64,000 nt of DNA from Acidobacteriaceae bacterium (GTDB lineage: Bacteria > Acidobacteriota > Terriglobia > Terriglobales > Acidobacteriaceae): positions 372,001 to 436,000 of the forward strand of contig CAHJWL010000002.1 of NCBI GenBank assembly GCA_903642235.1, written 5' to 3'. The number at the start of each line of letters is the position of its first letter. Position 1 is the first letter of the stretch. Shown piece by piece: positions 26,853 to 28,277 of the stretch. The translations under genes and the position numbers were made by a program. The notes under the pieces were generated by a model. That model worked only from the letters and a program-made list of their open reading frames with translations. It did not search any database and had not been told where the DNA came from.

Positions 26853-28277
26853 ATGTTTGAAAACCTCAGCGACAAGCTCCAGCGATCCTTCAAAACCCTC
26901 CGCGGCCAGGGCACTCTCACCGACGAAAACATCGCCGACGCCATGCGCGAGATCCGCACCGCGCTGCTGGAGTCCGACGTCAACCTCGCCGTCACCCAGT
27001 CCCTCGTCGAACACATCCGCACCCGCGCCCTGGGCTCTGAAGTCGCCACCTCGCTATCCCCCACAGAACAGATCGTGAAGATCGTCAACGACGAGCTCCA
27101 GAACCTGCTCGGCCGCGACACCGCCCGCTTCAAGTTCGCCCCCCAGCCCCCCACCGTCATCCTCATGGCCGGCCTCCAGGGCTCCGGCAAAACCACCACC
27201 TCCGGCAAGCTTGCGCAGTGGCTCAAAAAAGGCGGCCACCGGCCCATGCTCGTCTCGGTCGACGTCTACCGTCCCGCCGCCCGGGAGCAGCTCAAAGTCG
27301 TCGCCGACTCGGTCAAGGCCCAGATCTACGAAGGCAAGCTCTCCGAGCAGTTCCTGTCGTCCTTCGCCGTAGGCGGAGGACCTGCTTCTGTCTCTGGCAC
27401 CCCGGAAGTTCTCCGTCTCGCCAAAGAAGCCCTCCGCGACGCCCGCAACTTCGGTAACGACATCCTCCTCATCGACACCGCCGGCCGCCTCGGCATCGAC
27501 GAGCTCCTCATGGACGAGATGGCCGCCCTAAAGGCCGAAACCAGGCCCTCCGAGATCCTCTTCGTCGCCGACAGCATGACCGGCCAGGACGCCGTCAACT
27601 CCGCCAAGGCCTTCAACGATCGCCTCGGCATCACCGGCGTCATCCTCACCAAGATGGACGGCGACGCCCGCGGCGGCGCAGCCCTCTCCATCCGCCACAT
27701 CACCGGCGCCCCCATCAAGTTCCTCGGTACCGGCGAAAAACCAGACGCCTTCGAGGCCTTCCACCCAGACCGCATCGTCTCCCGCATCATGGGCATGGGC
27801 GACATCGCCACCCTGCTCGAGCGCGCCGAAGAAAAGCTCGACCGCGGCAAGGCCGAGCAGTTCGCCAAGAAAGCCCTCTCCGGCGACGGCTTCACCCTCG
27901 ACGACTTCCGCGAGCAGCTCCGTCAGATCAAGAAGATGGGCTCCATGAAATCCATCCTCAAGATGCTTCCATCCGTCGGCCCCTTCGCCGGCATGGCGGA
28001 GGCCGCCGAGAACGTCGACGAATCGCAGTTCACCCGCGTCGAATCCATCATCAACTCCATGACCAACCGCGAGCGCCAGGATCACGAGATCATCAACGGC
28101 TCCCGCCGCAAACGCATAGCCTCCGGCTCCGGCACCTCCGTCCAAGAGGTCAACAACCTCCTCCGCCAGTACGCCCAGATGCGCAAGATGTTCAAAATGA
28201 TCGGCGGAGGCGGCGGCCTCAAAGCCCAGCAACGCATGATGAGCCAGATGCAAGGCAAACAAAAGTTCGGAAGGTAA
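26853..28277 (+). CDS. ffh: Signal recognition particle GTPase Ffh (SRP54)
   Basis: Binds SRP RNA and signal sequences of nascent membrane proteins and docks them at FtsY. ATG 26853 has GGAGG six bases upstream. The 474-residue product shows an N domain, the GTPase domain with Walker A GLQGSGKTTTSGKLA (107-121), DVYRPAAREQLK, DTAGRL, TKMDGDARGGAALS and GEKPDAFEAFHP, and the methionine-rich M domain (MGSMKSILKMLPSVG, RRKRIASGSGTS). Between EQLK and DTAGRL it is about 19 residues longer than remembered E. coli and Thermus aquaticus Ffh. The extra part (about residues 161-180) is encoded by a sequence matching the intergenic palindromic repeat. The function should be retained since all GTPase motifs are intact. 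Confidence 0.97.
   Translation: MFENLSDKLQRSFKTLRGQGTLTDENIADAMREIRTALLESDVNLAVTQSLVEHIRTRALGSEVATSLSPTEQIVKIVNDELQNLLGRDTARFKFAPQPPTVILMAGLQGSGKTTTSGKLAQWLKKGGHRPMLVSVDVYRPAAREQLKVVADSVKAQIYEGKLSEQFLSSFAVGGGPASVSGTPEVLRLAKEALRDARNFGNDILLIDTAGRLGIDELLMDEMAALKAETRPSEILFVADSMTGQDAVNSAKAFNDRLGITGVILTKMDGDARGGAALSIRHITGAPIKFLGTGEKPDAFEAFHPDRIVSRIMGMGDIATLLERAEEKLDRGKAEQFAKKALSGDGFTLDDFREQLRQIKKMGSMKSILKMLPSVGPFAGMAEAAENVDESQFTRVESIINSMTNRERQDHEIINGSRRKRIASGSGTSVQEVNNLLRQYAQMRKMFKMIGGGGGLKAQQRMMSQMQGKQKFGR
27355..27394 (+). repeat. Family 1 palindromic repeat embedded in frame within ffh
   Basis: TGTC at 27355-27358 is followed by a ten-base stem GTCCTTCGCC (27359-27368), a GTA loop (27369-27371) and GGCGGAGGAC (27372-27381), which pair fully if one G-U is allowed, then CTGCTTCTGTCTC. 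Intergenic copies have the same order: TGTC, stem, GTA, stem, CTGCTTCT. Read in the ffh frame it encodes about LSSFAVGGGPASV. The arms are longer than in the intergenic form. Confidence 0.65.

Follow-up and report, generated by a model that had tools for sequence, protein, structure and literature searches.

In the available part of Di Nocera et al. (2013, PMC3733652), CGTC-tagged REPs are described with TGTC and CCTC variants of the tag and with no linked transposase. They show a stem of 8-9 bp, a loop of 4-5 bases and a three-base tail, mostly CCA, and most of them are arranged as head-to-head dimers. Intragenic REPs are reported there in several species, including RPE-4 and RPE-6 of R. conorii, and in genes encoding polymerase I, ligase and tRNA synthetase. 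The main text, in that part, mentions Acidobacteria once, for transposases, and contains neither "ffh" nor "signal recognition". Granulicella aggregans is included in a REP survey table in the available part of PMC12306157, so that the mere occurrence of REPs in this phylum is already on record. For the in-frame palindromes known so far, tolerated junk is hard to tell from new function.

The window, the whole stretch of 64,000 nucleotides that was analysed, belongs to an Acidobacteriaceae genome (G000) and contains a 36-nt palindromic element in frame within ffh (Table 1). This element is very probably a copy of a dispersed palindromic repeat that was inserted into ffh in the lineage of G000. 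The insert lies within the GTPase domain of a single-copy protein.

The element in ffh and its repeat family

Ffh is essential in bacteria where it has been studied. In the window, E. coli Ffh (2xxa) aligns to residues 1-450 of the ffh product with an E-value of 7.9e-132; the match is full-length and the GTPase motifs are kept, with G110, K113, T114, D208 and G211 invariant in 47 aligned rows. G000 shows this single full Ffh match and one further match on contig C13 (34% identity, E 5.2e-32), which is taken to be FtsY.

Table 1. Coordinates of ffh, of its 36-nt element and of the sister repeats in the window.
Feature	Position	Strand	Basis
ffh, signal recognition particle GTPase, 474 aa	26853..28277	+	ORF; 2xxa match
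36-nt palindromic element, in frame, encoding LSSFAVGGGPAS, Ffh residues 168-179	27354..27389	+	ends from 127 aligned copies
TGTC tag of the ffh element	27355-27358	+	sequence
5' stem arm GTCCTTCGCC	27359..27368	+	sequence; fold
GTA loop	27369..27371	+	sequence; fold
3' stem arm GGCGGAGGAC	27372..27381	+	sequence; fold
Unpaired tail CTGCTTCT	27382..27389	+	sequence; tail of repeat family
35-nt sister form, not called intragenic	301..335	+	
35-nt sister form, not called intragenic	3812..3846	+	
Three 26-nt sister elements, not called intragenic	7828-7853, 7891-7916, 7953-7978 (span 7828..7978)	+	
Two 26-nt sister elements, not called intragenic	41099-41124, 41173-41198 (span 41099..41253 with the shorter element below)	+	
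Shorter sister element	ending at 41253	+	
Four 26-nt sister elements, not called intragenic	from 59127, 59161, 59271, 59401 (span 59127..59426)	+	
26-nt sister element, not called intragenic	61639..61664	+	

The DNA of the element is CTGTCGTCCTTCGCCGTAGGCGGAGGACCTGCTTCT, translated by codons 168-179 as LSSFAVGGGPAS, and the reading frame that runs through it is strongly coding on both flanks. The parts described by the sequence-only reading, namely TGTC, a ten-base stem with one G-U pair, a GTA loop and a CTGCTTCT tail, are all present, and G-C is the first pair of the stem. That reading extended the element from 27355 to 27394; the unit is real, but this end is 5 nt too far, because 127 aligned copies share exactly the block 27354-27389. 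The plus strand folds at -17.6 kcal/mol (z -2.77; shuffle mean -10.9), with 2 of 200 shuffles as good. By eye, no target-site duplication was seen at the ffh element, and Rfam gave 0 matches over 26800-28300 at E up to 1.

The 36-nt repeat is a real dispersed family, with the pattern TTGTC-stem-GNA-stem-CTGCTTYT and a length equal to 12 codons. A 28-base core pattern (up to three mismatches) was found at 128 places in 13 of the 62 genomes of the genus, and its reversed control gave 0 matches in each of the 62 genomes. The DNA was read for all 128 places, 127 of them with full flanks, and these 127 copies, aligned on the core, show a conserved block of exactly 36 nt, TTGTCATCCTTCGCCGNAGGCGGAGGAYCTGCTTYT, with conservation lost on both sides. 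In the 109 copies that were not on the initial in-gene list, every base of the TGTC tag is kept in 104 or more. Among 111 36-nt copies not called intragenic, one inner stem pair is C-G in 83, A-T in 15 and G-C in six. It is complementary in 107 copies, against a mean of 72.6 after shuffling, and none of 300 shuffles reaches this number; the covariation may be partly due to shared descent of subfamilies. In the same 111 copies a T-G stem pair is kept in 107, the second pair is T-A in 110, and the first pair is A-T in 71 and A/C in 37. An exact subfamily pattern was found in six of 299 genomes of the class (6 of 29 in the genus and 0 of 270 others); G000 scores 0 with it because this pattern demands consensus ends. 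With the core pattern at up to three mismatches G000 shows two places, both intragenic, one in ffh and the other in an ABC transporter gene on contig C5. The ffh copy agrees with the consensus at 34 of 36 sites, and both changes, TTG to CTG and TCA to TCG, are synonymous.

The intergenic repeats of the window, which had been read as having the same order as the ffh palindrome, are related to it, but they belong to sister forms with lengths of 26 and 35 nt, and none of them is of the 36-nt form. All 13 pattern-found elements between 301 and 61664 of the window are on the plus strand. In G000, a loose pattern of the shorter sister, GTCATCCCGTAGGGATCTGCTT, gave 133 + 66 matches (overlapping readings counted) and its reversed control 2 + 0. 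The 26-nt form shows one weak intragenic call among 20 copies of G000 (L031-L060, among the matches listed), and in these 20 copies it looks shut out of genes.

Ffh of related genomes

The Ffh alignment covers 54 congeneric genomes and an outgroup; the other eight of the 62 genomes have no match or fragments only. By eye, the insert is present in two of the 54 congeneric rows, G000 and G084, and absent from the other 52. Ffh of G000, at 474 residues, is exactly 12 longer than the 462-residue protein of the highest-scoring relative, G005. Insert-free congeneric Ffh proteins contain 460-468 residues, most of them 460-465 and that of G071 468, and the ffh match is 1422 nt long in G000, against 1380-1404 nt in the remaining congeners with a full-length match. 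The distance from EQLK to DTAGRL is 69 residues in Ffh of G000 and 50 in E. coli Ffh (2xxa alignment). The difference of 19 residues that had been located exactly at the palindrome is therefore right in size, but only about 12 of them come from the repeat; insert-free congeners are mostly about 6-7 residues longer than E. coli, and about seven of the 19 are, by this alignment, an older length at the level of the genus.

With relatives lacking the residues and DNA junctions that match the repeat ends set by the 127 aligned copies, the proposal of a mobile palindrome in frame in the GTPase domain of Ffh is supported. An ordinary Ffh loop that resembles the repeat by chance would agree with the variable length of this loop among insert-free congeners, but it is extremely improbable: chance and an ancestral loop were both rejected on the agreement of 34 of 36 sites with the consensus of the family, on the reversed control of 0 in 62 genomes and on the relatives without the residues. 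A chance origin and a universal presence in relatives, the two outcomes that would have spoken against the proposal, both fail.

G084 shows a different stem variant, LSSFGEAGGPAF, in the same Ffh loop, which is 16 residues longer here than in G006, and the flanks of the insert differ between G000 and G084. In the Ffh tree both carriers are within one group of eight rows (support 93/52), and this, together with the shared loop and frame, is what a single ancestral insertion common to G000 and G084, and lost in relatives, would predict. Such an insertion is unlikely, since three insert-free lineages (six genomes) are between the two carriers and 0% of 200 bootstrap trees unite them, and since their stem variants and flanks differ. 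On the Ffh tree the two inserts need two changes. The loop was probably hit by two separate insertions, because the stem variant of G084 differs and the tree separates the carriers; the placement of the Ffh row of G000 is unsure because this row is on a long branch.

The insert is located between the RPAAREQL and DTAGR motifs of Ffh, a site which we take to be the insertion-box region. In the AlphaFold2 model, built on 47 aligned Ffh proteins (mean pLDDT 78.3, pTM 0.62), the sole inner segment with pLDDT below 50 is 172-179, within the insert; the block 161-170 before it is weak (mean 60), and the helix 183-199 after it is well predicted. The sequence-only reading called the palindrome domesticated. 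Domestication, in which the extra loop would tune Ffh and be kept by selection for that, would account for an element in the same loop in two species and for two changes from consensus that are both synonymous. Nevertheless it is highly unlikely: a nearly identical peptide is present in many unrelated proteins, the host loop varies in length without the element, the insert is of low confidence in the model, and constraint cannot be read from as few as two synonymous changes. The word "domesticated" goes beyond the evidence and is unsupported, and "tolerated" fits.

Copies inside other genes and their reading frame

Intragenic copies were called by a coding test based on hexamers, for which the ORFs of the window and those at the fetched loci served as training set. 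The test requires the same frame to be coding on both sides of the copy, with thresholds that are the analyst's choice. By this test 33 of 158 distinct copies (13 genomes) are intragenic, 26 of them scoring at least 30 on both flanks, and the genes include gyrA, polA, ligA, purH, leuC and murD. The 158 copies comprise the 13-genome set and the result of a looser pattern run in G000 and G084 alone, so the rates per genome are not comparable: G084 shows 18 calls in 37 copies, G000 5/9, G003 4/36, G080 2/24, G015 2/3, G021 1/1, G077 1/9, and six other genomes 0/39. Further in-frame copies are present in G000, the genome for which a search of all coding sequences was proposed with the first description of the palindrome.

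Pfam found domains in 28 of 30 candidate ORFs (including L253 and L254) and none in L266 and L341; protein names beyond the Pfam descriptions are the analyst's reading. The element is within the domain match in asnS (two genomes), proS, the RNase R gene, purH, leuC and murD. In coaBC, an ABC transporter gene and polA (one site shared by G003 and G080) it falls between domains. In G000, related forms are found in metG (L313), gyrA (L326) and a lysA-like gene (L331), and the last two calls are each weak on one flank. The copy in the LptA-like ORF L254 looks intragenic on the minus strand by Pfam, yet it is below the threshold of the hexamer test; the match of L253, inside a gene, may be due to chance, and L160 and L334 are weak intragenic calls. 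The idea that lengths not divisible by three are kept out of genes was rejected, with three strong 34-nt copies intragenic in G084, of which the one in leuC is accompanied by additional bases.

Several of these genes show further features. MetG of L313 (contig C3 of G000, about 281713) carries the 36-nt form and, in frame, PGAPSMAQSxRDMGGNV twice and PGLASETWVEAP twice; these repeated peptides suggest further in-frame repeat families. GyrA of L326 (contig C10, about 97238-97268) has a long array, NASLSSGSNASLSSGSNAS ... LSSRAAGSGSAS, in a loop of the C-terminal domain, which looks built from several repeat units, and most readable congeners show a shorter linker in this loop. The diaminopimelate-decarboxylase-like protein of L331 (contig C14, about 13464) contains, within the Pfam matches, a related repeat of 35 nt and after it a long stretch rich in proline and serine. 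In the ABC transporter gene of L062 (contig C5, 238617-238648), which has a sister copy, what seems to be a further element, LLSRSNAEGSAS, from a different subfamily lies about 24 residues upstream of that copy. The polA genes of the closely related species G003 (L192) and G080 (L240) show the insertion at the same place with a diverged element sequence, and this insertion is therefore probably older than the split between them.

Of 28 intragenic calls of the 36-nt form, 23 are in one strand and frame, which encodes LSSFAEGGGPAS; when both flanks score at least 30, the proportion is 20 of 23. Equal use would be one in five, because by eye all six frames of the consensus but one are open, and the binomial p against it is about 3e-12 for 23/28 and about 1e-11 for 20/23. 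These values assume independent copies, an assumption violated by shared sites like that in polA of G003 and G080. The remaining five of the 28 calls are in another frame or strand. MurD (L333) and RlmN (L255) are the two minus-strand intragenic calls, and the serine dehydratase (L321) has the element in frame +2. An early candidate rule, from 18 hand-picked copies, that all intragenic copies are in one frame was rejected when the hexamer test found other frames and the other strand. The frame bias is taken to reflect selection in favour of a peptide that does no harm; its source may also be a directional mechanism.

The copy in ffh probably persists because its 36 nt are 12 codons, which in the favoured frame give a small, flexible and mostly hydrophilic peptide, and because the Ffh loop that received it is one that already varies in length. 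Copies in worse frames or places would have been removed by selection, and the element would have spread as selfish or neutral DNA, tolerated rather than useful.

Loops are also reused in other proteins. In the gyrA loop, different inserts were seen by eye in G000, G084 and G006 (25 of 30 loci readable), and, also by eye, asnS is hit in G015 and G021 and metG in G000 and G084. The leuC loop of G084 contains a 34-nt copy accompanied by a net 14 extra residues compared with G077, and other insertions are found there in G035, G000 and G029 (15 of 30 loci readable). A tentative reading for the whole genus, which we consider possible though rather doubtful, is that codon-exact palindromes are recurrent, ready-made linkers of 12 residues that enter the same permissive loops (Ffh, GyrA, AsnS and MetG) across species, and that they do so mainly in a single frame, a selfish repeat thereby having been shaped into a form that genes can absorb; the independence of the loop hits was examined in Ffh only. 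With 62 genomes of one genus, empty sites and repeated hits of the same loop, three questions become open to test: the movement of short palindromes that have no transposase linked to them, the cause of the preference for one frame, and the possible acquisition of a role by such inserts.

Candidate mover and comparison with known systems

Y1_Tnp (PF01797) gave 37 matches in 15 of the 16 genomes searched, and G000 is the sole genome of the 16 with no match. Thirty Y1_Tnp loci were read, and no flanking repeat pair is present at any of them: 27 have no related repeat in the fetched flanks and three have one each, and three in 30 is about the background rate. From the kept hairpin, we guess that the mover might be a single-strand enzyme of the HuH/Y1 type acting in trans, which might since have been lost from G000.

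Among the titles listed in the literature searched, largely without subscription journals, none concerned intragenic REPs of acidobacteria. No published report of this sequence family, of Ffh as a target, of the frame bias or of the reuse of loops was found among these titles or in the available part of PMC3733652.

Compared with MITEs, the 36-nt element is likewise a non-autonomous dispersed inverted repeat, but it has 36 nt instead of 70-300 bp (available part of PMC3733652), and by eye no target duplication was seen in ffh. It resembles the GTAG REPs associated with RAYT in size, hairpin, dispersed copies and the intragenic location of some of them (same part of PMC3733652), and differs from them in that the consensus lacks a GTAG tag and that no Y1_Tnp gene is flanked by a repeat pair (30 loci). 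With RPE-1, RPE-4 and RPE-6 of Rickettsia it shares palindromic repeats in frame in genes of working proteins, as described in the available part of PMC3733652; the host proteins here would also work, because they are encoded by single-copy essential genes. The Rickettsia elements belong to another phylum, and RPE-1 is longer according to the same source.

The CGTC REP superfamily (Di Nocera et al., 2013; available part of PMC3733652) shares with the element a short palindrome, a tag that is often TGTC, frequent G-T pairs, intragenic units, including those in polymerase I, ligase and tRNA synthetase genes, and the lack of a transposase link, which here refers to Y1_Tnp at 30 loci. Complementary A/T in the first two stem positions, described for the superfamily, is seen here at the second pair (T-A in 110 of 111 copies) and in part of the copies at the first (A-T in 71, A/C in 37), the ffh copy having G-C first. 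It differs in that the stem has 10 bp and the loop three bases here, versus 8-9 and 4-5, and in that the tail is CTGCTTYT, of eight bases, versus three bases, mostly CCA. Because its stem and loop sizes differ and it lacks the CCA tail, the 36-nt element is not filed as a member of this superfamily. In-frame palindromes are known from the Rickettsia RPEs and the CGTC-tagged REPs, and the 36-nt element, tagged with TGTC, looks like these but has a different tail, a different stem and a different loop.
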